A stretch of DNA of 64,000 nucleotides from Mesoterricola sediminis (GTDB taxonomy: Bacteria > Acidobacteriota > Holophagae > Holophagales > Holophagaceae): positions 3,951,001 to 4,015,000 of the forward strand of contig NZ_AP027081.1 of the NCBI RefSeq assembly GCF_030295425.1, in the 5' to 3' direction. Position 1 is the stretch's first letter. Each line of letters opens with the position of its first letter. Below the pieces are notes generated by a model. It ran no database searches, was not told where the DNA came from, and worked only from the letters and a program-made list of their open reading frames with translations. Positions 26,246-46,870 of this stretch are shown one piece after another. Made by a program: the position numbers and the translations under genes.

Positions 26246-27427
26246 ATGCGAATCCCCCTTCTGGGGGCCCTGCCCTGCCTGCTCTTCGCGCAGGCGGCCG
26301 AGGCTCCCCTGGCCTTCGAGGCCATCCTGGCCCTGGCCCGCCCTGCGCCCGAGCAGTGGCGCGTCCAGGCCCTTCTCGCCGAGCGCGGCCTCCAGACCGC
26401 CGAATCCCGGGGCCTCCTCCGGGACGCCCCCACCCTCTCCCTCCTGGCGGGCCCCCGCCGGGCCACCGGCACCCCCGGCAGCACCGACCGCGCCGTGGAA
26501 CTGGACCTGCCCCTCCTCCTCGCCCCCGGCGCGCGCGCGGCCCTGGAAGCCAGCCTGGGCGCCGCCCATCCCCTCCTCACGGAAGCCGCCCGGCGCGAGG
26601 CCCGCCTCCGGCTCCAGACCGCCTACCTGGACGCGTGGCTCAGCGCGCGCCTGCGGGCCCTGCGGGAAGCGGACCTCCAGACCGTGGACCGCTGGCGGTC
26701 CGCGGCCCAGGCCCGGCTGGAGGCCGGGGCCGATCCCGCCTTCCAGGTGGCCCTCGTCGAGGGCGAGCGCCTCAAGGTCCAGCAGGAGCTGGACGAGGCC
26801 CGCCTCCAGGAGGCCCGGGCCTGGGGCGCCCTGACGGCCCTCGCCGATCTGCCCGCCCAACCCCGGCCCCTGGCCGACCCGGGCCCCCTTCCCGCCCTGT
26901 CCGGGGCCGGCCTGGAAGCCCGGCTCCAGGCCAGCCCCGTCCGCCAGGCCCTCCTCGCCGAGGCGGACCTGGAGGCCCGCGGCCTCCGCCTGAAGGAGGC
27001 CCAGGCCCTGGCGCGGTGGAGCCTGCGCGGCAGCTACGCCGCCGAGGGCGAGGACCGGGTGGCCCGCCTGGGCGTGGCCCTGCGCCTCCCCCGCCCGGGA
27101 CAGGCCGAGGCCGTCCGCCGCGGCACCGAGGCCCAGCTCCGGGCCGTCCAGGGCGCTTCGCGCCAGGCCCTGGCCGAGTTCGACGCCCGCGCCGAGGCCG
27201 CCGCGGCCCGCCTCCGGGGCTTCGGTCCCGACGCGCCGGTCCCCGACTTCGCCCGCGCCCTGGAGGCCGTCGGCCTCCGGCTGCAGGAGGGCCGGGAACG
27301 GCCTTCGGACGCCCTCCCCATCCGGCGCCAGCTGCTGGAGGCCCAGATGGCCTCGCTGCGGCGCGTCCACGCGCGGCATGCCCTGGCCGCCGAACTCCAG
27401 GCCCTGCTCCCCGAGGTGACCCCATGA
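26246..27427 (+). CDS. TolC-family outer-membrane efflux protein
   Basis: 393 residues, signal peptide ~1-18 (LLGALPCLLFAQAAEA), then long amphipathic helices rich in Ala/Leu/Glu/Arg, as in TolC/CzcC coiled-coil barrels. It is shorter than most members (~420-470), and the second repeat half lacks a clear NPxL-like motif. It should form the outer-membrane channel of the pump encoded by the next two genes. Its TGA overlaps the adaptor start (ATGA), indicating translational coupling. Confidence 0.82.
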   Translation: MRIPLLGALPCLLFAQAAEAPLAFEAILALARPAPEQWRVQALLAERGLQTAESRGLLRDAPTLSLLAGPRRATGTPGSTDRAVELDLPLLLAPGARAALEASLGAAHPLLTEAARREARLRLQTAYLDAWLSARLRALREADLQTVDRWRSAAQARLEAGADPAFQVALVEGERLKVQQELDEARLQEARAWGALTALADLPAQPRPLADPGPLPALSGAGLEARLQASPVRQALLAEADLEARGLRLKEAQALARWSLRGSYAAEGEDRVARLGVALRLPRPGQAEAVRRGTEAQLRAVQGASRQALAEFDARAEAAAARLRGFGPDAPVPDFARALEAVGLRLQEGRERPSDALPIRRQLLEAQMASLRRVHARHALAAELQALLPEVTP

Positions 27428-28542
27428 CCCGCGTCCACCAGATCCTGCCCCTCGCCCTCGTCCTCGCCGCGGGGACGGCCTGCGGCCGCAAGCCCGCGCC
27501 GAAGGCGGCGGAGGCGGAGCACGCCCACGAGGAGGCCGCCATCCCCGTGGAGGCCATGCGGGGCATCCGCCTCCTCGAGGTGGCCGAGGCCCGCACCGGC
27601 GCGCGCTGGATGCCCGGCGAGGCCCAGGGGGACGAGGCCGCCCAGGCCGTCCTCAGCTGCCCCGTCAAGGGCATCGTCAGCCGCCTCGTGGCCATCCCCG
27701 GCCAGGCCCGGCGGGCCGGGGAGGTGCTGGCCGTCGTCCAGAGCCCCGAACTGGCCCGCCTCAAGGCCGAGTGGATCGCGGCGAAGTCCCGGCTGACCCG
27801 CGCCCGGGCCGACCTGGCGCGGGAGGAACGCCTCTTCCAGGCCGGGGCGGGCGCCCGCCGGGACCTGGAGACCGTGCGCGCCGAGGCCGAGACGGCCGAG
27901 GCCGGGGAGGAAGCCGCCCGCCTGAGCCTGGAGGCCGTCGGCCTCCCGCCCAGCGAAGCGGGCGCCAGCTTCCCCCTCCGCGCCCCGTCCGCCGGCAGCC
28001 TCGTGGCCTGGAAAGTGCAGCGGGGCCAGGGCGTGGAGGCGGGCCAAGAGCTGGGCGCTTTCCAGGCCGCCCGGGCCTCCATCGTGAAGGTGGAGGTGCC
28101 CCAGCCCGGTCCCGTGGACTGGGCCCCGGGGGCCGAGACCGAGGTCCGCCAGGCCGGCGGAAGGACCTGGAGGGCGCGCCTGGAGGGGACCCCCACGGCC
28201 CTCACCGCCGACACGCGCCGGCTGGCCTACCGCCTCCGCTTCCTCGGTGGGCCCCTGCCCATCCCGGGCACCCCCGTGGAGGTGAAGGTCCCCCTGGACA
28301 AGGGAATCTACCTGCCCCAGTCCGCCCTCCAGCAGATGGAGGGGCGCTGGGGGGTCTTCGTGGTGTCGGGAGGGCAGGCCGCGTTCCGCCCCGTGACCCG
28401 CGGCGCCGACATCCAGGCCGAGGTCCTGATCCTCGACGGCCTGAAGCCCGGCGAGACCGTCGTGGCCGAGGGGGCCTACCTCCTCAAGGCCCGGCACCAG
28501 AAGCAGGCGGAACCGGAGGGGGAGGGCGGCCATGGCCACTGA
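27424..28542 (+). CDS. RND efflux periplasmic adaptor lipoprotein
   Basis: 372 residues. Lipoprotein signal with lipobox LAAGTAC (~16-22), then a His/Glu-rich stretch (EHAHEE) typical of CzcB-like metal adaptors. A biotinyl-lipoyl half (~70-105), coiled-coil hairpin (~110-165), second lipoyl half and beta-barrel follow, and the protein ends GGHGH. It bridges the inner-membrane pump and the TolC-like channel. His-rich ends favour a metal cargo. It overlaps the pump gene by 11 bp. Confidence 0.88.
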   Translation: MTRVHQILPLALVLAAGTACGRKPAPKAAEAEHAHEEAAIPVEAMRGIRLLEVAEARTGARWMPGEAQGDEAAQAVLSCPVKGIVSRLVAIPGQARRAGEVLAVVQSPELARLKAEWIAAKSRLTRARADLAREERLFQAGAGARRDLETVRAEAETAEAGEEAARLSLEAVGLPPSEAGASFPLRAPSAGSLVAWKVQRGQGVEAGQELGAFQAARASIVKVEVPQPGPVDWAPGAETEVRQAGGRTWRARLEGTPTALTADTRRLAYRLRFLGGPLPIPGTPVEVKVPLDKGIYLPQSALQQMEGRWGVFVVSGGQAAFRPVTRGADIQAEVLILDGLKPGETVVAEGAYLLKARHQKQAEPEGEGGHGH

Positions 28543-31500
28543 GCCCTCCTCCCTCCTGCGCCGCTGGTTCCAGGCCCTCCTGCCCCGCAAGGGCTGGGTC
28601 TTCGCCCTGAGCCTCGCCTGGGGCGCGGCGGGCATCCTCACCTTCACGGGCCTGGGGCGCGACCTGTTCCCCGACATGAGCCTGCCCGTCCTCAGCGTCC
28701 TCATCCAGAGCCCCGGGCGCGCCACGCCGGAGCTGGAGCTCTCCGTCGCCCAGCCCGCGGAGCAGGCCCTGGGCGGCATGCCCGGGGTGCGGCGGGTCAA
28801 CTCCGTCGTCCTGCCGGAGCTCGTGCAGACCGTCGTGACCTTCGAGGGCGGCACGGACCCGTGGCGGGCCCGGCAGCTCGTCGCCGAGCGCCTCTCGGGC
28901 GTCGTCGGGTCCTTCCCCGCCGGCACCCGCCCCCCCCTCATGACCAGCGCCTCGGGACGCCTCCAGGAGCTGATGGAGATCGTCCTCGAGGGCGAGCGCG
29001 TCGACCCCATGCGCCTGCGCGACCACACCGACCAGGTCCTGGTGCCCCGCCTCCAGGCGGTCCCCGGCGTGGCGCGGGTGGAGAAGCTCGGGGGCCAGGA
29101 GCGGTCCCTCCAGATCCAGCTCATCCCCGAGCGGGTCCGCAGCCTGGGCGTCACCCTCGACAAGGTCATGGCCGCCCTGGAGCAGAGCGGCCAGGACCTG
29201 GCCGCCGGCATCCTGGAGATCCAGGACAAGGGGTGGTACATGTCCGTGGGCAGCCTCGCCGCAGGCCCCGAGGAGGTGCGCAGGCTCCCCGTGCAGGCCG
29301 CGCGCCGCACCGTCACCCTCGGGGAGATCGCCGAGGTCCGGGAGGCACCCGCCTTCCGGCGCGGCCTGGCCCGGCACGACGGCCACGAGGACGTCAGCCT
29401 GCGCATCGTGAAGCAGCCCACCGCCGCCACCCTGGAGGTGGCCGAAGGCGTGCGGGAGGCCGTGAAGGAGCTCCAGCGGGGCCTGCCCCAGGGCATGCGC
29501 CTGGAGACCATCTACGACCAGGGCGGGCTCGTGACCCACGCCCTCGACGGGGTGACCCTGGCCCTGGCCGTGGGCGGCCTCTTCGTGGCGGGCGTCCTCG
29601 TCGCCCTCCTGGGCAGTTTCCGGGGCGCCGTCCTCGTGCTCGCCGTGCTGCCCCTGGCCACCTTCGGGGCGGCCATCCCGCTCCGCCTCTCGGGGCTGGG
29701 GCTGAACGCCATGACCCTCGGCGGCCTCGCCATCGCCGTGGGGCTGCTGGTGGACGCCGCCGTCATCATGGTGGAGAACCTGGCCCACCGCCTCCACGGG
29801 GCGGACGGCGGCACCCGGCGCGACGTGCTCACCCGCGCGGCGGCGGAAGTGGCCGGCCCCATCCTCACCGCCGTCCTCGTGATCCTGGCGGTGTTCATCC
29901 CCCTCCTCTCCATGGGCGGCATCGCGGGCAAGCTCTACGCCCCCCTGGCCGCGGCCGTGGCCTCCGCCATGACGATCAGCCTGGTGCTGACCTTCACCCT
30001 GGTCCCGGCCCTGGTGGAGCGCTTCCTGCCCCCCGGCGCCACCCTGCGGGAACCCCGGCTCGTGGCGGCCATCAAGCGCGTGTACCGGCCCGCCCTGGAC
30101 TGGGCCCTCGGGCACGGCGTCCTCGTGCGGATCCTGGCCCTGGGCCTGACGGTCCCGAGCCTGTGGCTGGCCTTCCGGCTGGGAACGGACTTCCTGCCCG
30201 CCCTGGACGAGCGCGCCTTCATGCTGCTCTCCAAGGTCCCCTCGGAATCCAGCCTGGAGGCGGTGGACAAGGCCAACCTGCTCCTGGACGAACGGCTCCG
30301 CGACATCCCCGGCGTCGGGGCCGTCTACCGCCGGAGCGGCAGGGCCGAGGTCACCGAGGACCCCTGCCCCATCACCGACAGCGAGGTGATGGTGATCCTG
30401 CGCGCCGACGCCGACGAGAAGGCCGTGGGCCGCGAGGTGCTGGAGGCGGCCGAGGCCATGCCCTTCCCCGTGGAAGTCAACACCCCCATGCAGGAGCGCA
30501 TCGCCGAGGGCATCGGCGGCACCCCCGCGGACATCCAGGTGAAGCTCTTCAACCGGGACCTGGACGCCCTGCGCCGCGAACTCCCGGCCCTCCGGGAGCG
30601 CCTGCTCCGGGTGGAGGGCGTCCGGAGCGTCACCCCCGACACCCCCGACCCCATGCCCCGGTGGCGGGCCGTCCTCGACGAGGAGGCCCTGCGCCGCCTG
30701 GACGTGCCCCGGCCCCTGGTGGCCCGGACCCTCCAGGCCGCCCTCCAGGGCCTGGAAGCCGAGGCCCGCTTCGACGGCCCCCAGCGCATCGAGCGGACCG
30801 TCCGGTTCCCCAACGACGGCCATGCCAGCCCCGAGACCCTCAAGGACACCCCCCTCGTCCTCGACGACGGCCGGGCCCTCTCCCTGGGCCAGGTCCTGCG
30901 CTTCGAGGAGGCCTCCACCCCGACCCTGGTGCGGCGCGAGTCCGCCCAGCGGCGCCTGGGCCTCAACGTCCGCACCGGGGGCGACCTGGGGGGGACCGCC
31001 CGCCGCATCGAGCAGGCCCTCGCCGGCGTCCAACTGCCCGAGGGCACCTTCGTGAAGCTGGGCGGCAAGATCGAGGAGGCCCGGGAGACCCAGCGCCGCC
31101 TCGGCCTGGCCGTCGCCGGGGCCCTGGCCCTCGTCGTGGGCCTCCTCTTCCTGGCCCTCAAACGCTGGCGCGAGGTGCTCGTCGTCGTCGCTACCCTGCC
31201 CGACGCCTTCGCGGGGGCCCTCTTCGCCCTCTGGCTCGCGGGCGAGACCTGGAACATCAGCTCCATCGTGGGCATGATCGGGCTCTTCGGGGTGGCCGTG
31301 CAGAACAGCCTGGTCCTCATCACCCAGGCCAAGGCCCTCATGGACGCCGGCACCCCCTTCGAGGAGGCCCTGCGGGAGGCCAGCCTCGGCCGGGTCCGGC
31401 CCAAGCTCATGACCGCCGGCGCGGCCATCCTGGGCCTCGCCCCCATGCTGCTCGGCTTCGGCGGCTCCGAACTGGAGCGGCCCCTGGCCATCGCCATGGT

Positions 31501-31588
31501 GGGCGGCCTCGTGACCAGCACCCTCTTCACCCTCCTGGCCCTGCCCAGCTTCTACGCGTGGGTGGGCCGGCCCCGCGACGGCAGGTAG
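28532..31588 (+). CDS. RND-family efflux pump permease
   Basis: 1018 residues, full length for RND pumps: helix 1 (~18-36), two large periplasmic loops, and two blocks of helices (~335-530 and ~860-1005). The TM4 region reads AIAVGLLVDAAVIMVEN. The second Asp and the Glu of the CzcA-type D..D..E triad are present, but the first Asp is replaced by Ala. Cargo may therefore be metal or organic. It forms an apparent operon with the TolC-like and adaptor genes, all overlapping. Confidence 0.9.
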   Translation: MATEPSSLLRRWFQALLPRKGWVFALSLAWGAAGILTFTGLGRDLFPDMSLPVLSVLIQSPGRATPELELSVAQPAEQALGGMPGVRRVNSVVLPELVQTVVTFEGGTDPWRARQLVAERLSGVVGSFPAGTRPPLMTSASGRLQELMEIVLEGERVDPMRLRDHTDQVLVPRLQAVPGVARVEKLGGQERSLQIQLIPERVRSLGVTLDKVMAALEQSGQDLAAGILEIQDKGWYMSVGSLAAGPEEVRRLPVQAARRTVTLGEIAEVREAPAFRRGLARHDGHEDVSLRIVKQPTAATLEVAEGVREAVKELQRGLPQGMRLETIYDQGGLVTHALDGVTLALAVGGLFVAGVLVALLGSFRGAVLVLAVLPLATFGAAIPLRLSGLGLNAMTLGGLAIAVGLLVDAAVIMVENLAHRLHGADGGTRRDVLTRAAAEVAGPILTAVLVILAVFIPLLSMGGIAGKLYAPLAAAVASAMTISLVLTFTLVPALVERFLPPGATLREPRLVAAIKRVYRPALDWALGHGVLVRILALGLTVPSLWLAFRLGTDFLPALDERAFMLLSKVPSESSLEAVDKANLLLDERLRDIPGVGAVYRRSGRAEVTEDPCPITDSEVMVILRADADEKAVGREVLEAAEAMPFPVEVNTPMQERIAEGIGGTPADIQVKLFNRDLDALRRELPALRERLLRVEGVRSVTPDTPDPMPRWRAVLDEEALRRLDVPRPLVARTLQAALQGLEAEARFDGPQRIERTVRFPNDGHASPETLKDTPLVLDDGRALSLGQVLRFEEASTPTLVRRESAQRRLGLNVRTGGDLGGTARRIEQALAGVQLPEGTFVKLGGKIEEARETQRRLGLAVAGALALVVGLLFLALKRWREVLVVVATLPDAFAGALFALWLAGETWNISSIVGMIGLFGVAVQNSLVLITQAKALMDAGTPFEEALREASLGRVRPKLMTAGAAILGLAPMLLGFGGSELERPLAIAMVGGLVTSTLFTLLALPSFYAWVGRPRDGR

Positions 31589-31602
31589 GCGTCCTCCACC
31601 CC

Positions 31603-31628
31603 GGGTTCCGCGGTTCGCCGCGGAACCC
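31603..31628. terminator. TTCG-loop hairpin after efflux operon
   Basis: Perfect 11-bp stem GGGTTCCGCGG / CCGCGGAACCC closed by a TTCG tetraloop, 14 bp after the RND stop. The exceptionally stable loop suggests a terminator or transcript-end protector, although no T-tract follows. Confidence 0.6.
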
Positions 31629-31647
31629 GCTTGCGCCGGCAAGGATC

Positions 31648-31666
31648 GTACTGTACCGTTCAGTAC
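31648..31666. promoter_or_regulatory. TetR-type operator
   Basis: Inverted repeat GTACTG-N7-CAGTAC, ending 13 bp before the tetR ATG. A possible promoter (TTGCGC at 31631, 17-bp spacer, TACCGT at 31654) is overlapped by it, so autorepression is expected. Confidence 0.55.
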
Positions 31667-31679
31667 ACTGGAGGACCCC

Positions 31680-32267
31680 ATGACCGCCCCGCGCACCCGC
31701 GACACCCGCGAACGCATCCTCGAGGCCGCCCAGCGCCTCTTCCTGGCGCACGGGTACGAAGGCACGAGCATGGACGCGATCCAGCAGGCCGTGGGCGGCT
31801 CCAAGGCCACCCTCTACGCCCACTTCGCCGGCAAGGACGCCCTCTTCGCGGCGGTGCTGGACCGGGCCGGGTCCGGCCCCCTCGCCCTGCCCCTCGAAGC
31901 CGGACTGCCGGTCCGGGAAACCTTGGAGCAGGTGGCCGACAAGGTCCTCCAGGTGGCGGGCTCCCCCTGGTACGCCCGCCTGCAGCGCTGCGTGCTCGGC
32001 CGGGCCGAGGCCGCCCCCGAGCTGGCCGCCGCCTTCTTCGAGCAGGGCGCGGGCCTCGCCCACCGGGAGCTGGCGGCCTGGCTGCGCCGCCAGCACCGGG
32101 CGGGGGCCCTCCGCTGCCCCCGGCCGGAGCGCTCCGCCGAACTCTTCCTCGGCCTCGCCCAGGGCCTCCACGCCCAGCGGGCCCTCTTCGGGCTCCCGCC
32201 CCTGGACGCCGCGGCCCGGAAGGCCTGGGCGCGCCAGGCCGTCCAGGCCTTCCTCACCCTCTCCTAG
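31680..32267 (+). CDS. TetR/AcrR-family transcriptional regulator
   Basis: 195 residues. The N-terminal HTH (~8-58) reads TRERILEAAQRLFLAHGYEG then SKATLYAHFAGKDALF, the standard TetR pattern. An AefR-like helical ligand domain (~65-195) follows. It probably represses its own promoter via the adjacent palindrome. Whether it also controls the upstream RND genes is unclear, since they lie upstream on the same strand behind a hairpin. Thioredoxin follows 11 bp downstream. Confidence 0.88.
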   Translation: MTAPRTRDTRERILEAAQRLFLAHGYEGTSMDAIQQAVGGSKATLYAHFAGKDALFAAVLDRAGSGPLALPLEAGLPVRETLEQVADKVLQVAGSPWYARLQRCVLGRAEAAPELAAAFFEQGAGLAHRELAAWLRRQHRAGALRCPRPERSAELFLGLAQGLHAQRALFGLPPLDAAARKAWARQAVQAFLTLS

Positions 32268-32278
32268 GAGTTCCCCCC

Positions 32279-32596
32279 ATGAGCACCCCCTTCCCCGCCG
32301 TGGACGACGCCACCTTCCGCGAGGCCGTGGCCTCCGGCACCACCCTCGTGGACGTGTGGGCCCCCTGGTGCGGCGCCTGCCGAACCCTGGGCGCCACCCT
32401 CCAGCAGCTGGCCCCGGCCCTGGACCCCGCCCTGAAGGTGGTCCAGCTGGACAGCGAGGCCAACCCCGCGACCGCCGCGGCCCTCGGGGTCCTGGCCCTG
32501 CCGACCCTCCTCCTCTTCCGGGACGGGGCCCTCGTCGGCCGCCGCGTGGGCGCCCTGGGCCGCCAGGGCATCCTCGCCTTCGTGGCCGGGGATTGA
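32279..32596 (+). CDS. thioredoxin-family protein
   Basis: 105 residues, one thioredoxin fold with active site W30-C31-G-A-C34 (WAPWCGAC) and the cis-Pro loop in LALPTLLLF. The CGAC dipeptide differs from the CGPC of classical thioredoxin, which usually raises the redox potential. No signal peptide, so cytosolic. An AGGAG sits just before the ATG. Probably cotranscribed with the tetR gene. Confidence 0.88.
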   Translation: MSTPFPAVDDATFREAVASGTTLVDVWAPWCGACRTLGATLQQLAPALDPALKVVQLDSEANPATAAALGVLALPTLLLFRDGALVGRRVGALGRQGILAFVAGD

Positions 32597-32799: not shown

Positions 32800-34212
32800 A
32801 TGACCTGGCTCACCCGCCACCCCGCCCAGGCCTCGATCCGCACGGTCCTCCTGGGCTCCCTCCTCATCCTGGGCGGCTGGGCGCTGGCGGTCACCCTCGG
32901 GCATCTGCAGCTCAACTGGCGAGCCCATCGCCATGCCCAGGACCGGGTGCGGGCCTCGATCCTCGCCGAAAGCATCCTGGAAATGGCCAACAACCTTGCT
33001 TTCGAACGGGGGCGCGCCGCCGTGCTCCTCCGCCGGACCGAGATCCCCGCCCCCGAGGACCTGGCCTTCCTGGACCGCCGCCGCGCCCGGTCCGAGTCCG
33101 CCTGGCAGGCCCTTCAGGGCCCGCTGCGCCAGGGGGCCATCCCCCACGCCGCCGACGTCGAAGCCCGCCTGCAGGAGGTCCGGGCCCTCCGGGTCCGCGT
33201 GAGCGAAATCCTGGTCCGCGTCGGCCAGGACCCCGCCCTCGCCGACGCCTGGTACCTCGCCGCCACCCGGGCCATCCAGGCCATCCAGAAGAGCCTGGAG
33301 GCGCTGGCCCAGCAGTTCGAGCCCGGCGACAGCACGATCCCCCTGGCCCTCCTGGCCAGCACCGCCCTGGAACTGCGCGACACGGTGGGCTCGGAAAGTT
33401 TCATGGCCCTCCAGCTCATCTCCGCCGGATCGGCAACCCCGGCGCAGCGGGAGCGCGTCGCCGAGGCCCGCGGCCGGGGCGAGCGCCTCTGGGACGAAGT
33501 CGCCCAGCTGGCCGAGATCGGCCACGCGCCGGCCCTCCAGGCCCGGGTGGCCGACCTTCGGGCCCAGTGGACCCAGGTCGCGCGCCCCCTCCACGACGCC
33601 GGGCTCGCGGACCTGGCCCAGGGCCGGGCGCCGATGCCCATCCGCCGGATCACCGCCGTCTCCGTGCCCGCCCTGGATGGCCTCGCGGCCCTGAGCGCCG
33701 CCGCCGCCCAGCAGGTCCGCATGCGCGCCCAGGCCACCATGGCGGCCACCCAGGCGCATCTGGTCCGCCACGTCCTCGTCCTCGCGGGCCTGCTGCTGGT
33801 CCTGGCCTTCTCCTTCCGCTACGTGCTGGTCCACATGGTCCAGCCCCTGGAGGCCGCGGACCAGGAACTCCGGCGGATGGGCGCCCTGCCCCAGCTGACC
33901 GATGGCAAGGGCAGCGAGGTGGAGCGCATCACCGCCAGCACGCAGGCCCTCGGCGAATCCCTGGCCCGCCGCGCCGAGGCCGAGGCCGCCCGCGAGGCGA
34001 CCATCGCCGAGCTCCAGGCCGCCCTGGACCAGATCCGCGTGCTCAAGGACATCCTCCCCATCTGCGCCCGTTGCAAGAAGATCCGCAACGACGCCGGCTA
34101 CTGGGAGCAGGTCGAATCCTACATCTCCACCCACACCGACACCACGTTCACCCACGGCTGCTGCCCGGACTGCGCCGAGGTCCTCTTCCCCCGCCCGAAA
34201 CGGGAGGCTTGA
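32800..34212 (+). CDS. membrane sensor-like protein with C-terminal paired CxxC motif
   Basis: 470 residues. Helix 1 (~13-35), a periplasmic all-helical sensor region (~36-320), helix 2 (~323-342), a HAMP-like segment and coiled coil (~345-415). The C-terminus then reads [20 protein letters not shown], ending HGCCPDC. C422/C425 and C455/C458 make two CxxC pairs. This tail occurs at the end of many uncharacterised sensors in place of an output domain. No kinase, GGDEF or methyl-accepting domain is present. It may be a zinc- or redox-linked protein-interaction module. A TATGAT -10-like hexamer is at 32726-32731. Confidence 0.75.
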
Positions 34213-34420: not shown

Positions 34421-35113
34421 ATGTCCCTCACCAAGCGTCTCGCCGCTGAATTCCTGGGAACCCTCTGGCTCGTGCTCGGCGGGTGTGGCAGCGCCGTCCT
34501 GGCCGCCGCCTTTCCCGGCGTAGGCATCGGCCTGCACGGCGTCAGCCTCGCCTTCGGCCTCACGGTGCTCACCATGGCCTTCGCCATCGGCCCCATCTCC
34601 GGCTGCCACCTGAATCCCGCCGTGAGCCTGGGCCTGGCCACCGCCGGGCGCTTCGCCTGGAAGGACCTCGTCCCCTACTGGATCGCCCAGGTGCTGGGCG
34701 CCATCGCCGCCGGCGCCGTCCTCTACGCCATCGCCAGCGGCAAGCCCGGCTTCACCCCCGGCGGCTTCGCCAGCAACGGCTACGGCCTCCACAGCCCCGG
34801 CGGCTATGGCCTGGGCGCCGCCTTCCTCACGGAAGCCGTCCTCACCTGCTTCTTCCTCCTCGTGATCCTGGGATCCACCGCCCGGAAGGCCGCCCCCGGC
34901 TTCGCCCCCATCGCCATCGGCCTCTGCCTCACCCTCATCCACCTGGTGAGCATCCCCGTCACCAACACCAGCGTGAACCCCGCCCGCAGCACGGGCGTGG
35001 CCTTCTTCGCCGAGGGCGGGTGGGCCCTGGGCCAGCTCTGGCTCTTCTGGGTCGCCCCCCTTCTCGGCGCCCTCGTCGCCGGCTGGATCTTCCCCCGCCT
35101 CGAAGCGGAGTGA
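34421..35113 (+). CDS. aqpZ: aquaporin Z-type water channel
   Basis: 230 residues, six helices, with both NPA pore motifs (HLNPAVS at 63-69 and SVNPARS near 185). The start ATG follows GGAGG. Length and the [12 protein letters not shown] context match bacterial AqpZ (water-selective) rather than the longer glycerol facilitators. It is the last backbone gene before the tRNA-linked accessory region. Confidence 0.93.
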
Positions 35114-35230
35114 CCCCCGGGCCCGCGAGGGCCGAACGGCTGACCACCGGAACCGCCCCCCCTGGCGGGCGCCGGAGGTCAACCCAACCGCCAACGCGCC
35201 GAACCCCGCGCGGACTCCCCCAAGCCTCAG

Positions 35231-35273
35231 CCCCCCCCGCAACGCTCGACATCCGTCGACCGTTGCGAGGGGG
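35231..35273. terminator. hairpin beside degenerate tRNA relic
   Basis: Stem GCAACGCTCGAC / GTCGACCGTTGC (one mismatch) with loop ATCC, extended outward by CCCC/GGGG. It sits immediately at the 3' side of the minus-strand tRNA-like relic, the same position as the hairpins beside the other tRNA-fMet copies. Confidence 0.55.
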
Positions 35274-35318
35274 CGTAGAGGCAGGCGCTGGACCTGCGAC
35301 CTCTGGGTTCTGAGCCCG
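35271..35318 (-). pseudogene. degenerate tRNA 3'-half relic
   Basis: The minus strand keeps an anticodon arm (GGGCTCAGAACCC) and a T arm (GCAGG-N7-CCTGC) with the same spacing and GAGGTC-type variable loop as tRNA-fMet. The anticodon loop now has CAG, the T loop lost TTC, and neither the D arm nor a pairing acceptor strand is present. It is best read as a decayed 3' tRNA fragment, the outermost of five tRNA-like sites in this region. Confidence 0.5.
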
Positions 35319-35509
35319 GGAAGCGCGCATTGCAAACCATCTATTTACAACGATTATACCCGCAACAACACCTGGGTACCAATCCGGTTACAACGCCTTT
35401 CTTCTTCAATACCCTATGACGAACGCACACCATCTCGTTGCACTTCCGTCGATCATGCACGACAAATTTAACGGATTCGGATCAACTGTCGATCGTATTC
35501 GAAGGATTT

Positions 35510-36723
35510 ATGATAGCTCGCTCATCATACTTGGACCGGATCCGGGCCTACCTGGACAAACCCATCGTCAAGGTCATCACCGGCATGCGACGGGTCGGGA
35601 AGAGCACCTTGCTGGGCCAAGTGCGTGAAGAGCTCCTGGCACAGGGGGTCCCGGCCGCCCAGATCCTGAGCATCAACAAAGACCTCGTGGCCTGGGATGG
35701 CGTCCGGACTTACCTGGATCTGGACCGGGCCATCCAGGACACCCTCGCGAGCCAGCCTGCCCCCGCTACCTCATGGTGGACGAGATCCAGGAGATCGAAG
35801 GCTGGGAGAAGGCCATCAACTCGGTCCTCGCCCAGGGGCTGGCCGATGTCCTGATCACCGGTTCCAACGCCCATTTGCCTTCCACGGATCTTGCGACCCT
35901 GCTCACCGGCCGCTATGTGGAGATTCCGGTCTACCCGCTTTCCTTCTCCGAATTCCTGGCCTTCCGCCATGCTGCAGGCGATACGACGGACAGGACCGGA
36001 TGCTTCCGGCAGTTCCTTCGTTATGGCGGCCTTCCCGGGCTGCATGTCCTCCCCCTGGTCGACGACCAGGTCTTCCCGTTCCTGAACGCGATCCTGAACA
36101 CGATCCTCCTGAAGGACATCGTCAAGCGCCACGCCATCCGGGATGTGGGACACCTGGAACGCATCCTGTCCTTCGCCTTCGACAATTGCGGATGTCCCGT
36201 CTCCGCGCGGAGCATCGCGGCCTACTTCAAGAACCAGCAGACCCGCATCACTGCGGACACGGTGCTGAGCTACCTCGCCCACCTCTGCAATGCCTTCCTC
36301 CTCTTCCGCACCGGGCGGTTCGAGATCAAGGGGAAGAAAAACCTGGAGTTCCTGGACAAGTACTACTTGGGGGACCTGGGCCTCCGGCATGCGCTGTTCG
36401 GATACCGGGAGCCCGATGTCGGCGGCCTCCTCGAGAATGTGGTCTTCCTGGAACTCCTTCGCCGTGGCTATCAGGTGAAGGTCGGCATCCTCGACCAGGG
36501 TGAAATCGATTTCATCGCCGAACGCCACGGCGAGCGCCTCTACATCCAGGTGGCATACCTGCTCGCCGGCCCCGAGACCCTCCTGAGGGAATTCGGAAGC
36601 CTTGCGCGGATTCCCGACAACCATCCCAAACTTGTCCTGTCCATGGATGAGGTTGGGCAGGCCCAGCGCGAGGGCATCCGCTGGCAGCACGTCCTGGATT
36701 TCCTGACCGAAACACCGACCTGA
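35510..36723 (+). pseudogene. AAA/DUF4143 ATP-binding protein, frameshifted
   Basis: From ATG 35510 (after GAAGGA) the frame encodes YLDKPIVKVITGMRRVGKST with a Walker A, then breaks. The rest, from Walker B onward (RYLMVDEIQEIEGWEKAINS, near 35765), continues in another frame to 36723 and includes the DUF4143 nuclease-like domain. The break falls at a C5 run (35760-35764), and one added C would restore a ~400-residue protein. So either a 1-nt deletion has inactivated it or this is a sequencing error. Such ATPases are frequent in mobile islands; function unknown. First cassette of the tRNA-linked array. Confidence 0.8.
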
Positions 36724-36764
36724 GGCACCCGCGAGGGCTTCCGGTCTTTGCCAGGCAACGAAAG

Positions 36765-36795
36765 AACGCCTCGAATCGTTGAGATTCAAGGCGTT
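36765..36795. terminator. terminator between cassette 1 and tRNA relic
   Basis: Stem AACGCCT-C-GAATC / GATTC-A-AGGCGTT with one C/A mismatch and a 5-nt loop. It ends the ATPase pseudogene on the plus strand and the tRNA copy on the minus strand. Confidence 0.7.
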
Positions 36796-36811
36796 GTTCA
36801 CAACTCCGATG

Positions 36812-36861
36812 GGTAGCGGGGGCAGGATTTGAACCTGGGTTCGCCTTCGGCTCACCCCGCG
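36812..36861 (-). pseudogene. tRNA-fMet fragment (acceptor and T arm)
   Basis: Positions 36812-36837 are identical to the 3' 26 nt (before CA) of the intact tRNA-fMet copies, through the T arm. After that the match is lost. A later ACCCCGCG (36854-36861) may be the remaining 5' acceptor strand, so this could be an internally deleted tRNA or an attachment-site relic. Confidence 0.75.
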
Positions 36862-36938
36862 GCATGGCTGCGCACGGGCATCCGCCTCCGGCGGACCGGA
36901 AGGGACGCTGCCCCGCAGCGTCAGTCTAGGAATTTCAT

Positions 36939-36957
36939 TTCATTTTTGGGCACCCGG
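36939..36957 (+). repeat. cassette-internal repeat, copy 1
   Basis: TTCATTTTTGGGCACCCGG; 17 of 19 bases match the copy at 38718-38736. Both lie roughly 65-100 bp inside the cassette from the adjoining tRNA fragment, as expected for an integrase arm site. Confidence 0.5.
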
Positions 36958-37162
36958 TGGAGACCTTCCGCCTCCCCGGTCAAGCCATCCTGAGTTTCAT
37001 TTCCCGACTCTGCCGCCCAGCACCGACAGGCAAGCAAACACCCGCCCGCAGATACCAACCACCTACTACTTGGTAGCATTTTTAGTATTTTCTGGACGCC
37101 GCCGGTCCTTGGGCTTAACCCACTAGCGAACTCCTAATCGGGGTCATTTTTAATAGGATGCC

Positions 37163-38509
37163 ATGAAGCTGCCCCATCGGCCGCCCGGCCTATCTGGCTT
37201 GTTCAACCTCCTTAAACCCGGGGACATCCAGGAGATTTTGCATCTCCAGCCAGGCCCCTTGGTAAGGGATGCCTACCTCCACTGGGATGAGTTACGGCAT
37301 CGAAACCCGCCCGAACCCCTGGATCACGAGAAATGGTGGCTCGGCATCAAGTGGGCCCGACAAGCCATTTCCAAGCCCCTCCCACTCCTGGACAAGGAGG
37401 GGCTGCCCTTCCGTTTCGGCTCTCCGGAGCCCATCCTGATCGATCTGCACCACATTGACCAGGACGCCGCAGGGGAAATCCGGTCCGTCAGCGAGGCCGC
37501 CACACCTGCGACCCGGGACCGCTATCTCCTGAAATCGATCATTGAGGGAGCCATTACGTCCAGCCAATTGGAGGGCGCATCCACGACCCGCAAGGTGGCC
37601 GCCGAGATGCTTCGTTCGGGCAGAAGGCCGAAGGATCGCAGCGAGCAGATGATCTTCAACAACTTCATGGCCTTGCAGGCCATCCAGGGATTCAAGGACG
37701 AGCCTCTCACCCCGGGCCGCATCCGTGAAGTCCATCGGTTGGTATCGGAGCACACCCTGGACGATCCCCTTGATGTGGGGCGGCTACGCCGGGCGAACGA
37801 CGTTCATGTCGTCAGCACCGACACCGGCACCTTTCTTCACCAGCCACCCGACTACCGTGAGCTCCCGGAACGCCTCGAGCGGTTGTGCGCGTTCGCGAAC
37901 GCCGGTGAGGACGACCGGCCCTTCGTGCATCCCGTTCTCAGGGCCATTCTGCTTCACTTCATGATCGGTTATGACCACCCCTTCGCCGATGGCAACGGCA
38001 GGACCGCACGGGGCATTTTCTACTGGTCCATGCTGCGCAGCGGGTACTGGTTGACCAAGTTCATCTCGATCTCCCACATCCTGCGCAAGGCCCCAGCCCA
38101 GTATGGAAGAGCATATCTCCTCACCCAGACCGACGGTGGGGACACGACCTACTTCCTCATTCACCAACTCGCCACCATCCGCAAGGCCATCCAAGGACTC
38201 CATGACTACCTCGCCAGAAAGGCCAAGGAACAACGAGGCGCGGAGCGCATGCTGGCGGAGTCGCCAGCCTTGCGAGCCAGGCTCAACCACCGGCAAAAGG
38301 CCCTGCTCACCCATGCGCTGAAACATCCCGGTACGGCCTATCGCATCGAGGACCACCAAAAAACCCATGCCGTTGTCTACCAGACTGCCAGAACCGATCT
38401 GCTGGGGTTGGCAGCCCTGGGCCTTCTCGAAAAGGTCAAGGAAGGGCGCGCCTTCGTGTTCCTCGCTCCGGAGGACCTGGCCGTCAGGATGTCCAGCCAT
38501 GGCCGGTGA
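37163..38509 (+). CDS. Fic-domain protein (putative AMP-transferase)
   Basis: 448 residues. The Fic core motif HPFADGNGRTAR begins at ~272 and matches HxFx(D/E)GNGRxxR completely. A class II inhibitory helix motif SSQLEGA lies near 133, before the Fic domain, so activity is probably self-restrained. A C-terminal winged-helix-like stretch (~375-440) ends the protein. Fic enzymes transfer AMP or related groups to target hydroxyls. Second cassette of the tRNA-linked array, AT-richer than the backbone. An imperfect palindrome (TACCAA-N11-TTGGTA, 37053-37075) lies upstream. Confidence 0.9.
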   Translation: MKLPHRPPGLSGLFNLLKPGDIQEILHLQPGPLVRDAYLHWDELRHRNPPEPLDHEKWWLGIKWARQAISKPLPLLDKEGLPFRFGSPEPILIDLHHIDQDAAGEIRSVSEAATPATRDRYLLKSIIEGAITSSQLEGASTTRKVAAEMLRSGRRPKDRSEQMIFNNFMALQAIQGFKDEPLTPGRIREVHRLVSEHTLDDPLDVGRLRRANDVHVVSTDTGTFLHQPPDYRELPERLERLCAFANAGEDDRPFVHPVLRAILLHFMIGYDHPFADGNGRTARGIFYWSMLRSGYWLTKFISISHILRKAPAQYGRAYLLTQTDGGDTTYFLIHQLATIRKAIQGLHDYLARKAKEQRGAERMLAESPALRARLNHRQKALLTHALKHPGTAYRIEDHQKTHAVVYQTARTDLLGLAALGLLEKVKEGRAFVFLAPEDLAVRMSSHGR

Positions 38510-38569
38510 CAGGCAGGGCACGAGGACTGGGCTTTCCGGAATGCCATCCGGGCTTGCATAGCAAAAGGC

Positions 38570-38601
38570 AAAAGGGGCTCGACTTGCGTCGAGCCCCTTT
38601 T
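38570..38601. terminator. bidirectional terminator between Fic cassette and tRNA fragment
   Basis: Perfect 14-bp stem AAAAGGGGCTCGAC / GTCGAGCCCCTTTT with loop TTGC. A-tract and T-tract on opposite sides make it an intrinsic terminator in both directions. Confidence 0.88.
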
Positions 38602-38606
38602 GCGAT

Positions 38607-38652
<46 letters not shown>

Positions 38653-38717
38653 GCATGGATTTTTGAATTTTATATGGTGAAAATATTTAACTTAAAGAAA
38701 CACCGATGGGCATTTGC

Positions 38718-38736
38718 TTCAATTCTGGGCACCCGG
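38718..38736 (+). repeat. cassette-internal repeat, copy 2
   Basis: TTCAATTCTGGGCACCCGG, matching 36939-36957 at 17 of 19 positions, 66 bp inside the third cassette. Confidence 0.5.
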
Positions 38737-38834
38737 CCTAGCGATGCCGTCAGTCGGTTGCACGATTGATGGCTTTCATTTGGACGGACTAATACGTTTC
38801 AAATGGACGGAGCCTTACCTTACAATTGGACGCC

Positions 38835-40085
38835 ATGGACCCCACTCCGCTCTATCCCCGTTTCGCCGTCCCGCGCCTCCTTGAAGCCTTGGAGGATACC
38901 CCGGTCGTCCTGGTCCACGGCCCTCGCCAGTGCGGCAAGACCACGCTCGCGAAAGCGGTCGGCTTACCCACGAATTATGCATATATCTCGTTTGACGACC
39001 CCATTGCCCTGACCTCTGCCACGGCCGACCCCGTGGGATTCGTGGCCGACCTGGGCGAAAGAACGATCCTGGACGAAGTCCAACGTGTGCCCTTCCTCTT
39101 CGCGTCCCTCAAGGCCGCCGTGGACCGTGACCGCAGGCCGGGTCGTTTCCTGCTCACCGGGTCGGCCAACGTCCTCCTGGTCCCGCAATTATCCGACTCC
39201 CTCGCGGGCCGGATGGAGATCATCCGGCTCCACCCCCTGGCTCAATGCGAACTCACAGCCTGCCCGTCCTCCTTCCTGGACCGGTTGTTCGACGGTGATT
39301 TCCGGGTCGAATCGGCGACCAGACTCGGGGGTGAGTTGGCGAACCGGATCGCCGCCGGCGGCTACCCGGCGGCCCTGGCCCGGTCGTCCCCCCACCGTCG
39401 CGCAACCTGGTATCGCAGCTACCTCGAAACCATCATCCAGCGGGATGTGCGTGATCTGGCACGGATCGCGTCCCTGGATGTCCTGCCCCGGCTTCTGGAG
39501 GGCGCGGCAGGCCAGACGGCTCGCCTATTGAATATCAGTGACCTCGCAGCCCCCCTCCATTTGACCCGGCCGACCATCCGGGACTACACGACGCTCCTGG
39601 AGAACGTGTTCCTCCTCGACGAACTCCAGCCGTGGCACAGCAATCGCCTCAGCCGCCTCATCAAGACGCCCAAGCTGCATTTCGGAGATACCGGTTTGGC
39701 CTGCGCTCTCCTGGGTCTGGACGGACCTGCCCTCTGGAAAGATCGCGGGACACTTCGCCAGTTACTGGAGACCTTCGTCTACCAGGAGCTTCGCCGACAG
39801 GCCGACTGGGGTGCCTCGCCGACCCGCTTCTACCACTTCCGGGACAAGGAAGGCATCGAGGTCGACCTCATTGCCGACCGTGGCGCGGCTGGACTTGCCG
39901 GCATCGAGATCAAGGCTGCGGCAACCGTCACCCCCAAGGACTTCCGCGGGCTCAGGAAACTCAAGGAAGATGCAGGACAGCGGTTCAGGACCGGCGTGGT
40001 TCTCTACGACGGAGAAACCTGCGCGGGCTTCGGCGAAGGAATGTTCGCCGTGCCAGTGAGTTTCCTATGGAAGCCCTGGAAATGA
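38835..40085 (+). CDS. AAA/DUF4143 ATP-binding protein
   Basis: 416 residues from ATG 38835 (a TTG nine bases upstream is possible). The AAA_14-type ATPase has Walker A GPRQCGKTTL (~29-38) and a Walker B-like RTILDEVQRVP (~76). An HTH-like middle is followed by a DUF4143 PD-(D/E)xK-like end with KEGIEVDLI and GIEIKAAATV. Intact, unlike the related gene at 35510. Function of the family is unknown; members cluster in mobile islands. Third cassette of the array. Confidence 0.88.
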   Translation: MDPTPLYPRFAVPRLLEALEDTPVVLVHGPRQCGKTTLAKAVGLPTNYAYISFDDPIALTSATADPVGFVADLGERTILDEVQRVPFLFASLKAAVDRDRRPGRFLLTGSANVLLVPQLSDSLAGRMEIIRLHPLAQCELTACPSSFLDRLFDGDFRVESATRLGGELANRIAAGGYPAALARSSPHRRATWYRSYLETIIQRDVRDLARIASLDVLPRLLEGAAGQTARLLNISDLAAPLHLTRPTIRDYTTLLENVFLLDELQPWHSNRLSRLIKTPKLHFGDTGLACALLGLDGPALWKDRGTLRQLLETFVYQELRRQADWGASPTRFYHFRDKEGIEVDLIADRGAAGLAGIEIKAAATVTPKDFRGLRKLKEDAGQRFRTGVVLYDGETCAGFGEGMFAVPVSFLWKPWK

Positions 40086-40087
40086 CG

Positions 40088-40115
40088 AAGGGGTTCGGCA
40101 GTTGCCGAACCCCTT
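40088..40115. terminator. bidirectional terminator beside tRNA-fMet copy 2
   Basis: 12-bp stem AAGGGGTTCGGC / GCCGAACCCCTT, loop AGTT, beginning 3 bp after the ATPase stop and ending 5 bp before the tRNA 3' end. Confidence 0.8.
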
Positions 40116-40116
40116 C

Positions 40117-40203
<87 letters not shown>

Positions 40204-40272
40204 AGATAAATGCAAGTCCCATAAGGATTTCTGGGGTCTCTTGCATCCTGCCCACAAGCCCCGTCTAACGGA

Positions 40273-40292
40273 CTTGTGGCGTCCTGGTGACA
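40273..40292 (+). repeat. putative integrase arm site, left
   Basis: CTTGTGGCGTCCTGGTGACA, 19 of 20 identical to 46654-46673 in the same orientation. It lies 75 bp inside the left tRNA copy and just upstream of the integrase. Confidence 0.6.
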
Positions 40293-40344
40293 ACAGGCTC
40301 CAGCCGAACATCCAGGTGATCCCTCCTCACCCAGGAGGAATCCC

Positions 40345-41415
40345 ATGGCAAGTTCCCATCCCGGTCTCAAGAAGATCGGTCCGTTCTGGCACTACGAACT
40401 GAGGGTCAATGGACAAAGGCTCCACGGCTCGACCAAGGCAACGGACCTCGCCACCGCAAAGAAGGTCCTGGAGATCAAGCGCCGGGAAGCCCTGGAAGGG
40501 CAATACAGGATCATCAGCCGTATACCGACTCTCAAGGAGGTCTTCGACCAGTGGCTACGGACCCATCAAGGAATTTTCAGCCAGAGGCACCTTGTTCCAA
40601 CGGAATGCGTGTTTCGGAAATGGCTGCAGCCCCGGATGGGTTCGACCAGGACCGACCAGATCGGGAGTAGCCAGGTGGAAAACCTTCGTTCAGACGCCAC
40701 GACTGCTGGGCTCTCGCCACGGACCATCAACAACATCCTGAAGACTCTCCAGGTGCTGCTCAACTACGGCTTCAAGTCGGGGTTCATCAAGGGGCAACCG
40801 ATGAAGATCGGTCTCTTGCGCGTTCAGAAGAAACCTCGCCCTGTCCTTCCCGCCGCCAGGATCAATGAGTTCCTTGAGGCTGTTGACCGAACCGCGACTA
40901 ACCCACACGTCCAGGTGATACTCCGGGTCATGATTGGGCTTGGGCTGCGAGAATCGGAAGCACTCGGGATGCGCTGGGAATGGTTCGACCCTCAGCAGCG
41001 GACCTATGTCGTTGGGAAATCCAAAGGCAGGGAGGCTCGGGTCCTGCCTGTGCCTGAGTGGCTCTGGAATGCCATTCACGGGATGCCGAAGACCCTGAGC
41101 GAATGGGTATTTCCCGCTGAGGATGGCAAACCTCACCGCCCCCAATTCTGCAAGAAGGCTCTCCAGCGGGTCTGCCTCCGCCTCGGACTGGGAAACGTCA
41201 CACAGCACCGATTGAGGGCAACATTTGCGACTCTCCATGCCACTGTGGCAAAGACACCCATTACAGAAATCATGGGCTTGCTCGGGCACAAGGCTGTCAC
41301 CACAACCATGATCTACGTGGAGTCGGCATTGGAGAACAAACGGAAGGCACAGGAGATCATGAGCATGAAATTGGGGTTGGGGATTGAGCCAGCCCGAGTG
41401 GTCTCAGGAATCTGA
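40345..41415 (+). CDS. int: tyrosine recombinase / integrase
   Basis: 356 residues, with strong AGGAGGAAT before the ATG. An N-terminal arm-binding region (~1-60), SAM-like core-binding domain (~65-160) and catalytic domain follow. Catalytic residues visible: Arg in GLGLRESEAL (~203), Lys in SKGREARVLPV, HxxR in QHRLRA (~289), LLGHK (~312) and Tyr in MIYVESA (~324). All are intact. It should recombine the tRNA-fMet-associated repeats to insert or excise this island. A weak 6-bp hairpin (41424-41446) follows. Confidence 0.95.
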   Translation: MASSHPGLKKIGPFWHYELRVNGQRLHGSTKATDLATAKKVLEIKRREALEGQYRIISRIPTLKEVFDQWLRTHQGIFSQRHLVPTECVFRKWLQPRMGSTRTDQIGSSQVENLRSDATTAGLSPRTINNILKTLQVLLNYGFKSGFIKGQPMKIGLLRVQKKPRPVLPAARINEFLEAVDRTATNPHVQVILRVMIGLGLRESEALGMRWEWFDPQQRTYVVGKSKGREARVLPVPEWLWNAIHGMPKTLSEWVFPAEDGKPHRPQFCKKALQRVCLRLGLGNVTQHRLRATFATLHATVAKTPITEIMGLLGHKAVTTTMIYVESALENKRKAQEIMSMKLGLGIEPARVVSGI

Positions 41416-41478
41416 TCCCCTGTAGAGCCTATGCCATAATGGCTCTAATTCCATAGCCAAAAGGAGAAAGCTCGCGTG

Positions 41479-42399
41479 ATGACTCGAACCAAAGCGATCG
41501 TTGTCGGCATTATTGGAATTGCCCTGGTGTCGGTGGCGGCGGGGTTATGGATACGAAGTAAATCCATGAAGAATGCGACCCCGCCGCCATTTCTTGCCTG
41601 GGTGGAGATTAGCCGGGACCCGAAACATAAAGGTGATCTTGACGCCTACCCGCTGATTGCAGTCAAGGGGGGTTCACTCGTAGACATTTCCCTAGACCCC
41701 GAAGCGGAGAAGGCACCATTGCCCTCTATTCCGGTCGAACGATTCCCCCTGAAAGCCAAACCTGTTGTGAGCGGCTTCTTCATGGGTAAGGAACTTGGGC
41801 TCTTGAGGATCAAGTCATACAAGCCGGTCCAGGTCGCTTGCAATGAGCTCGTGCTGGGAAAGGGTGAGTGGGCGGAGAAGGGTAACCGTACATCCGTGCC
41901 ACGTGGCATCAAAGGATTCATTGCTGCGTTCCAACTCCCGAAGCAGAGGTCCTGGGCTTCAACCCTCCCGACCAGCAGGAGGCAGGAAATTGAGGCTAAA
42001 TTCCTGGCGGAAGCACGCACCAAATTCGACTTGGCGCAGGACGTGAATGCAAAGGAGTTTCTACGAAACTGGATATCCCTGGGAGAAAGCAGGGGGGATG
42101 TTGCCTTCTTTGAGGTCCTGTGGAAGGTAGGCGAAGAACTGAAGGTGCTCAATGCCCTTGTCCAAGTCCAGGCACAAGGGGATGCAAAGACCATCTGGGA
42201 AGTCTCAGGGCAAGGTGCGGCAGAGTCCGATGCCGGAATTCCCGTCTACGAATTCCTTGATGCGTTTGACGTGGATGGCGACGGCATTCCTGAACTTGTT
42301 CTCGGATACCACAACTATGAAGCCAACAGCTTCATCCTCATACGCATCCTCCCAGGCAAGCCCACCGAACTTTGGAATGGATCAGGTTACGGTTGCTAA
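41479..42399 (+). CDS. island cargo: membrane-anchored protein with DxDGDG repeat
   Basis: 306 residues from ATG 41479 (GTG 41476 also possible; AAGGAG upstream). An N-terminal signal/anchor helix (~5-24, TKAIVVGIIGIALVSVAAGL) is followed by an exported body of unknown fold. Near the end DVDGDGIPELVLGYHNYE resembles the calcium-binding loop of FG-GAP/VCBS repeats. No family is recognised. Mixed codon wobble shows foreign origin. The next two genes are also exported proteins on the same strand. Confidence 0.7.
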   Translation: MTRTKAIVVGIIGIALVSVAAGLWIRSKSMKNATPPPFLAWVEISRDPKHKGDLDAYPLIAVKGGSLVDISLDPEAEKAPLPSIPVERFPLKAKPVVSGFFMGKELGLLRIKSYKPVQVACNELVLGKGEWAEKGNRTSVPRGIKGFIAAFQLPKQRSWASTLPTSRRQEIEAKFLAEARTKFDLAQDVNAKEFLRNWISLGESRGDVAFFEVLWKVGEELKVLNALVQVQAQGDAKTIWEVSGQGAAESDAGIPVYEFLDAFDVDGDGIPELVLGYHNYEANSFILIRILPGKPTELWNGSGYGC

Positions 42400-42464
42400 T
42401 AAGTAGTGCAAGGAACTCACGATCAATAGGAGATAACCAGCCCTATCCTGTTCCCTGGAGCCCT

Positions 42465-42935
42465 GTGACCAAAGCCATTGTCTATTCACTTGCAGCCCTG
42501 GTCGCCGTGGCTGCATTCACTCAGACCCCGGTTCGACCTGAGGTATTCGATGCTTGGTCCTCCCGGAGAGGAAAGGTGCAGGTTGTAGGGAAAGGGAACG
42601 GCGAGAGTTACCTGGTCTGCAGGGGCAGACGCATTGCAGAGTTCCCAACCCGGGGCTTCCTTTTCGCCTCCTTCCGCCCCTCTGGGGACCTCGGTGACGA
42701 GGTCTTCCTGATTCAATTGAACGCTGCCGACACAGCTTGGTTCCACATCTTGGAAGTGAGGGAGAAGGGCGACATCTGGGTTTCACCTCGCATCGGCAAT
42801 GGTGGCGACCTTCCGAAGGTAGTATTCAAAGCCGGGTGCCTTGAACTCTTGTTCGAGGAACTAGATTATCCCCGGGGCATAGTTCCTGCTCAGTCATGGC
42901 AATTCCAGGGGCATCAACTCGTAAAGATCAGATAA
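42465..42935 (+). CDS. island cargo: putative exported protein
   Basis: 156 residues from GTG 42465, chosen because a signal-peptide-like sequence begins there (TKAIVYSLAALVAVAAFTQT). Its TKAIV opening echoes that of the preceding protein. The mature part is beta-rich with GKVQVVGKGNGESYLVCRGR and GDEVFLIQLN. No family is recognised. It lies 65 bp after the preceding gene and probably shares its transcript. Confidence 0.6.
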   Translation: MTKAIVYSLAALVAVAAFTQTPVRPEVFDAWSSRRGKVQVVGKGNGESYLVCRGRRIAEFPTRGFLFASFRPSGDLGDEVFLIQLNAADTAWFHILEVREKGDIWVSPRIGNGGDLPKVVFKAGCLELLFEELDYPRGIVPAQSWQFQGHQLVKIR

Positions 42936-42968
42936 GCGTTGATTCATGGGAAATGGGTGGAAAATACG

Positions 42969-44418: not shown

Positions 44419-44602
44419 TGATGTCTCCTTGATGCCAGCCGTTCCTATGGCTTGGCGATCTGTAGGAAGCACCCGAGCATCCACGGTCGCGGGGTGCGTG
44501 TGAGTAGTCGCACATGTCTCAAAGTGCATGTGCTTGATGGCGGAATTCCGTGCTGGCGACAATTACCAAGGTGCACGGAGGGCGACGGGGGGCGCGTGCC
44601 GC

Positions 44603-44634
44603 GATGTGCATCTGCACACCTGTGCATGGTCACG
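44603..44634. repeat. double-palindrome element, copy A
   Basis: TGTGCA-TC-TGCACA (44605-44618) followed 16 bp on by TGTGCATGGTCACG. The 32-bp block matches 46075-46106 at 27 positions. It straddles the primase stop codon, upstream of the small accessory gene. Confidence 0.6.
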
Positions 44635-45865: not shown

Positions 45866-45915
45866 GGATCACCAGACCGGATGCTGGTGCTGTGGTGTGG
45901 TCAAAGAGATCAGGT

Positions 45916-46773: not shown

Positions 46774-46783
46774 CGTCATCTGG

Positions 46784-46870
<87 letters not shown>

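Follow-up and report, generated by a model that had tools for sequence, protein, structure and literature searches.

Results

The locus and the layout of the sensor protein

The gene described here lies on the plus strand of the window, by which we mean the whole stretch of 64,000 nucleotides of Mesoterricola sediminis DNA that was analysed. The encoded protein is arranged as follows, residue positions within it being approximate except for the two CxxC pairs.

32800 to 34212, plus strand: sensor gene with the paired-CxxC tail (open reading frame with ATG start, 470 amino acids)
32842 to 32910, plus strand: transmembrane segment 1 (residues 15-37; hydropathy)
32911 to 33753, plus strand: periplasmic helical sensor with a predicted NIT-like fold (residues 38-318; AF2 model, match to NasR 4akk)
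33754 to 33834, plus strand: transmembrane segment 2 (residues 319-345; hydropathy)
33835 to 33969, plus strand: HAMP-like helix-break-helix (residues 346-390; AF2 helices 281-359 and 371-416 with a break between them)
33970 to 34050, plus strand: presumed coiled-coil linker (residues 391-417; hydrophobic pattern of 120 tails and linker phase of relatives)
34051 to 34194, plus strand: tail core, the putative C4 output module (residues 418-465; tail searches and alignments)
34063 to 34074, plus strand: C422xxC425 (read from the translation)
34162 to 34173, plus strand: C455xxC458 (read from the translation)

The protein has five cysteines, at positions 422, 425, 454, 455 and 458. The original prediction had named C422/C425 and C455/C458 as the two pairs, and the translation agrees with it exactly; C454 is an extra cysteine at a site taken by I, L, V, M or F in the other 119 of 120 aligned tails. 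Hydropathy finds two transmembrane segments, and the AF2 model between them is helical. The original prediction had further claimed that the protein ends in a tail rather than an enzyme. No part of the protein scores above the cut-off of any Pfam or NCBIfam model (searched with E up to 10). This includes HisKA and HATPase in Pfam, and the HAMP-like stretch has no match to the Pfam HAMP model.

Just upstream of the sensor gene, at 26246-32596, genes for an outer-membrane efflux protein, an RND pump, a TetR-type regulator and a thioredoxin stand in a row. The region 35000-47000 has a G+C content of 0.51-0.65 compared to about 0.70 for the window and carries two AAA_14/DUF4143 ATPases, a Fic protein and an integrase, and it looks like a genomic island. 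Within this region an exact direct repeat of 87 bases, which includes a tRNA-Met gene, has its copies at 40117 and 46784. A phage-type integrase gene (40345-41415) lies just inside, and 40117-46870 is probably an element of 6.7 kb integrated at tRNA-Met. The DUF4143-type ATPase gene at 35438-36723 is seemingly split into the overlapping frames 35438-35854 and 35773-36723, and the second frame alone matches the last three quarters of the PADLOC model PDC-S01; the gene is therefore probably broken.

The sensor part is an orphan with a predicted NIT-like fold

The AF2 model of the window protein was built from an alignment that covered the tail region only (49 of the 119 other tails); its mean pLDDT is 78.7, and its helical structure extends as far as residue 416, including the stretch between the transmembrane segments. 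With the caveat that helical bundles easily match one another, the best structural match of model residues 29-316 is the antiterminator NasR (4akk; Z 19.4, rmsd 4.4, 275 aligned residues), with the next match clearly lower at Z 15.2, and Foldseek also ranks 4akk first (E 3.8e-3), followed by NarQ entries. The NIT fold of the NasR sensor consists of two four-helix bundles, and the output of NasR is an ANTAR domain. Similarity of the window protein to the NIT domain of NasR and to the NarQ, NarX and McpN sensors concerns the predicted periplasmic fold and is limited to the sensor part. The Pfam NIT model does not match the window protein at E up to 10, and the periplasmic sensor is NIT-like by predicted fold, not by Pfam. 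Nitrate as its ligand is only a suggestion derived from this model. After the second membrane segment a helix, a break and a further helix follow in a HAMP-like pattern and lead into the presumed coiled coil.

A search of 60 other genomes of the family, among them five of the same genus, found no relative of residues 1-417 at E 0.001. By sequence the sensor part is thus an orphan, whereas the tail is conserved, and since orthologues of the sensor part are missing, its ligand is not approachable through conservation.

The tail forms the C-terminus of many different sensors

The original prediction had stated that the same tail is known from other uncharacterised sensors. Besides the window's tail, the 4.52 Mb genome of the organism has six further copies (E 3e-25 to 8.5e-16), followed by a weak eighth match at E 0.45. 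Together with the copies in other genomes, such a recurrence goes far past what chance would give. The seven proteins, whose domains were named by reading the sequences, comprise one REC, two PAS, two propeller and one multi-TM protein and the window sensor, hence at least five kinds of input. In a scan with one genome per species, at least 574 of 584 pattern stretches were confirmed by tblastn. The titles of the 80 loci that were kept include Ignavibacteriae, Neomarinimicrobiota, Chloroflexi, Deltaproteobacteria, Zixiibacteriota, Nitrospirae, Bacteroidetes, Verrucomicrobia, Spirochaetes, Calditrichaeota, Acidobacteria, Lentisphaerae, Cloacimonadota, Hydrogenedentota and Halieaceae, among others. 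The window's own phylum has the tail in 74 of 199 genomes, with up to 19 copies per genome. A mobile module was considered and rejected, as one plasmid record and no phage record matched.

Twelve further genomes, chosen because the tail is present in them, were searched with the core alone. The 69 core matches have E values no higher than 1.1e-6, and two partial hits follow at about 0.006. All 69 tails are C-terminal, with 0 to 31 residues beyond the match, and are preceded by REC, PAS, HAMP or membrane segments. The wider set of 215 open reading frames with a stop codon has at most 67 residues beyond the core. Seven frames that ran off a contig and one spurious match had been dropped from the collected tail frames. 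That the tail might be a truncated part of a larger known domain, the outcome named as fatal to the original prediction, is rejected on this ground and also because ten tails scanned alone gave no Pfam or NCBIfam match above the cut-off. Weak Pfam rows below the cut-off (DUF3039, zf-C4pol and DUF1272, E 0.002 and above) look as if they reflect the spacing of the cysteines.

When 84 full tail proteins were compared with Pfam, PAS (up to 32 by one model) and REC (18) were the commonest domains, followed by HAMP (5), Tll0287-like (4), GAF (4), propeller (3) and HisKA_7TM (3); MASE3, CHASE and solute-binding domains occur as well. Among the 25 listed of the 60 Pfam families that matched these proteins, none is a catalytic output domain. 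GGDEF, HD-GYP and chemoreceptor motifs were all absent from 122 listed open reading frames, in which the motif check picked up two EAL-like and eight kinase-like strings, all of them loose. By reading, the tail at four loci (L203, L206, L213 and L218) seems to follow almost directly after the last membrane helix, a minimal membrane-anchored version of it. Tail genes are clustered in several genomes, with three copies at L183 and two each at L173, L215 and L218.

The original prediction had called for a search for conserved neighbours. Among the 514 neighbours of 77 tail genes, one broad two-component cluster (24 of 87 loci) is the only one to exceed three loci; an ABC ATPase cluster and an AMP-ligase-type cluster reach three loci each; a dedicated partner gene was not found among them. 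Among the tail genes that could be placed (14 could not), 3 of 9 with REC and, of the others, 3 of 70 have a histidine kinase recognized by motif on the same strand and within two genes; the background is 14 of 895 open reading frames. The looser kinase pattern is found for 9 of 76 tail genes compared to 16 of 895 background frames. The link between tail genes and kinases is thin.

Sequence and predicted structure of the tail

In 120 aligned tails no variation is seen at P420, C422, C425, K426, G433, H452, C455, P456 and C458, and very little at L405, L415, G417, I421, K427, I428, R429, D431, W435, E439, Y441 and F450, W435 and E439 each being kept in 119. Both CxxC pairs are present in 174 of 175 non-redundant copies, a count that has to be read with the fact that the search patterns and profiles themselves reward cysteines, and 29 residues lie between the two pairs in 170 of 174. 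From this spacing and conservation we infer a C4 metal site, likely for Zn2+. The conserved histidine is absent in 3 of 174 copies and is therefore probably not a ligand.

A structure prediction for the tail, also proposed in the original prediction, could be obtained and is of moderate quality (pLDDT 77, pTM 0.43); it contains the linker helix, few strand residues and two short helices. Searched against the PDB, this model gave a best E of 3.6 and no entry with a Z of 2, and with a model of this quality such a null result carries no information on the novelty of the fold. By sequence, the best PDB hits were a glutamate dehydrogenase at E 0.0064 and one at 0.012, both judged to be chance. PHROGs (searched with four tails) and PADLOC (with the window protein and one REC-tail protein) yielded no family for the tail, the PADLOC rows of the latter protein lying on its REC part.

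Lengths of the linkers in front of the tail

For REC proteins, the linker was taken as the distance between the KP-motif lysine, which is conserved, and the first cysteine of the tail, after a cut at 60% identity. The sample is non-random and was drawn from the 12 tail-carrying genomes, the collected loci and chosen frames of about 200-280 amino acids. The 49 non-redundant RECs divide into 32 with KP and a linker of up to 80 residues, four beyond this length (90, 90, 174 and 483) and 13 with no KP motif in the region searched, namely six measured without KP, L184 (whose KP lies outside that region, at 66) and six with long stretches between REC and tail. Lengths of the 32 short linkers are 34 (5), 41 (1), 48 (19), 55 (6) and 62 (1), and each leaves a remainder of 6 on division by seven. 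Together with L184, which at 66 leaves a remainder of 3 and is the exception, 32 of 33 non-redundant KP-type REC proteins share one heptad phase. The two proteins with a length of 90 also share this phase, and those at 174 and 483 have PAS domains between REC and tail. The six KP-less RECs (42, 42, 49, 49, 54 and 58) have different loops behind the lysine and are therefore not on the KP scale.

A maximum-likelihood tree of 38 in-phase REC proteins, computed with the linker omitted, including redundant proteins and lacking L184, contains seven changes of length, all of them multiples of seven. If L184 is counted as an eighth change, seven of eight are multiples of seven; were the phases equally probable, seven or more of eight would be expected with a probability of about 1e-5. 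Including L184 scarcely alters the preference for one phase.

PAS linkers, counted between the DIT aspartate and the first cysteine, could be measured in 58 of 65 cases, with lengths of 35 (51), 14 (2), 42 (1), 29 (2), 74 (1) and 160 (1). Thus, 54 of 58 are at 14, 35 or 42, and 29, 29, 74 and 160 are the exceptions; the common length of 35 is perhaps owed to shared descent. The eight HAMP proteins fall into two phases, five at 46, 46, 46, 60 and 67 and three at 49, 56 and 63. With a length of 49 the window protein belongs to the smaller of the two. The 24 residues in front of the tail have conserved hydrophobic a-d-e columns at 7/8, 11, 14/15, 18, 21 and 25 in the 120 tails.

Discussion

We describe here a tail that is modular and conserved, stands at the C-terminus, follows heptad-phased REC and PAS linkers and, as far as the ten tails scanned alone can tell, is without a model in the Pfam and NCBIfam releases used. 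Searches of openly licensed papers turned up no title, abstract or passage describing it, and peptide strings of the motif matched no paper. The original prediction had raised the possibility that the tail is a new type of signalling output; the architectures, the C-terminal position and the phase of the REC linkers (32 of 33) speak for this. We regard it as most likely, from sequence, that the tail is a genuine output domain, and it is probably a metal-bound protein-interaction module. The complete reading, in which the tail would be the C-terminal signalling output domain of many sensors, switched by a coiled coil, predicted to bind metal and acting by binding a partner, is given a probability of roughly 0.6.

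In the mechanism that we deduce, from the metal and the dimer to the register switch and the binding of a partner, the four cysteines would coordinate a single metal ion, likely Zn2+, in a small fold of the C4 type that is about 45 residues long. The input domains would dimerise, here the NIT-like and HAMP-like parts and elsewhere REC, PAS, GAF, CHASE or propellers, and would shift a parallel coiled coil in register or rotate it. This coiled coil is expected to continue without a break into the tail, at its conserved LxGLLPIC start. In a dimer, the two tails could then form one metal-bound surface with a geometry set by the register of the coiled coil, and the re-oriented pair would bind or release one partner common to the tails of a cell. 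A shared partner is proposed because the motif is near-identical among paralogues with different inputs.

A precedent for a linker of this kind comes from diguanylate cyclases. In the DgcR study, the lengths from KP to the output motif in 1991 Rec-GGDEF sequences lie multiples of 7 apart, with one group excepted, and a slippery axxdexx heptad is described that switches register upon activation (PMC8041772). For phytochrome-GGDEF proteins, 54% of linkers are reported to differ by multiples of seven, with -4 and +2 also occurring (PMC9587094). Rec-GGDEF and phytochrome-GGDEF proteins such as DgcR, WspR and PadC share with the tail proteins the order of input, coiled-coil linker and C-terminal output, and Rec-GGDEF proteins also the steps of 7 and the a-d-e heptads (PMC8041772; PMC9587094). 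In contrast to Rec-GGDEF, the output is here a tail of about 45 residues with four cysteines, and with the GGDEF motif in none of the 122 listed frames a diguanylate cyclase is ruled out. By the linker criterion, and by analogy, the tail likely works like a GGDEF domain in that it is driven by a coiled coil. The reading as an output gains support from the distribution of the tail together with the phase of its linkers.

The most serious competing explanation, which we nevertheless consider improbable, is that the tail is a zinc finger binding DNA or RNA and that the proteins are one- or two-component transcription regulators. The spacing of the cysteines resembles C4 fingers, K426, K427 and R429 are conserved, and the archaeal HalOD2 domain with its two CXXC motifs was proposed as a DNA or RNA binder (PMC5847659). 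Against this, the core has a mean net charge of -1.4 (range -8 to +4; -3 in the window protein), many copies sit, by reading, on membrane proteins, and up to 19 near-identical motifs per genome leave little room for separate DNA targets. Since the core is uniform and its mean charge slightly acidic, DNA binding is the less likely reading.

HalOD2 is described as a C-terminal pair of CXXC motifs behind REC, present only in a few haloarchaeal response regulators, and is predicted to be a Zn finger; its pairs are separated by 20-25 residues, and its N-terminal part resembles HalX (PMC5847659). The tail differs from it by the 29 residues between pairs in nearly all copies, its many inputs and its presence in many bacterial phyla. 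TackOD1, described there as a cysteine-rich output domain of response regulators in archaea and some bacteria, has 11 conserved cysteines (five CXXC and one HXXC) compared to four in the tail (PMC5847659). Judged by their published descriptions, HalOD2 and TackOD1 are the nearest described cysteine-pair outputs, and they differ from the tail in spacing or in the number of cysteines.

Less probable still is that the cysteines tune the sensor as a switch responding to redox state or to metal, which would make the tail an added input. Two CxxC pairs and a thioredoxin gene just upstream (32279-32596) would suit such a switch, but a thioredoxin cluster does not recur in three or more other loci, the tail is the last domain of a window protein that is otherwise without output, and linkers that keep to one phase are a trait of output domains. 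A structural cap or dimer clamp with no signalling role of its own, to which the small size and the conserved junction with the coiled coil would be suited, is quite unlikely, as the charged and aromatic residues K426, R429, D431, W435, E439 and Y441 are conserved across phyla beyond the needs of a cap and the window protein would be left without an output.

With the tail taken as a coiled-coil-driven output domain, a wider idea may be put forward tentatively, and we hold it to be somewhat doubtful: in many phyla the tail could provide a third general channel beside phosphotransfer and cyclic dinucleotides, in which up to about 19 different sensors per cell, all ending in the same metal-bound module, would act on one shared partner through coiled-coil gating. 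Hundreds of sensors and response regulators that lack a recognised effector end in this module, and if the tail is taken as an output, they would have a common and testable effector. The heptad rule can guide such tests, and REC-tail proteins of about 200 residues, such as L009:8527-9174 of the same genome (216 amino acids), would be the easiest starting point, since BeF3 can switch their input and the linker can be extended residue by residue.
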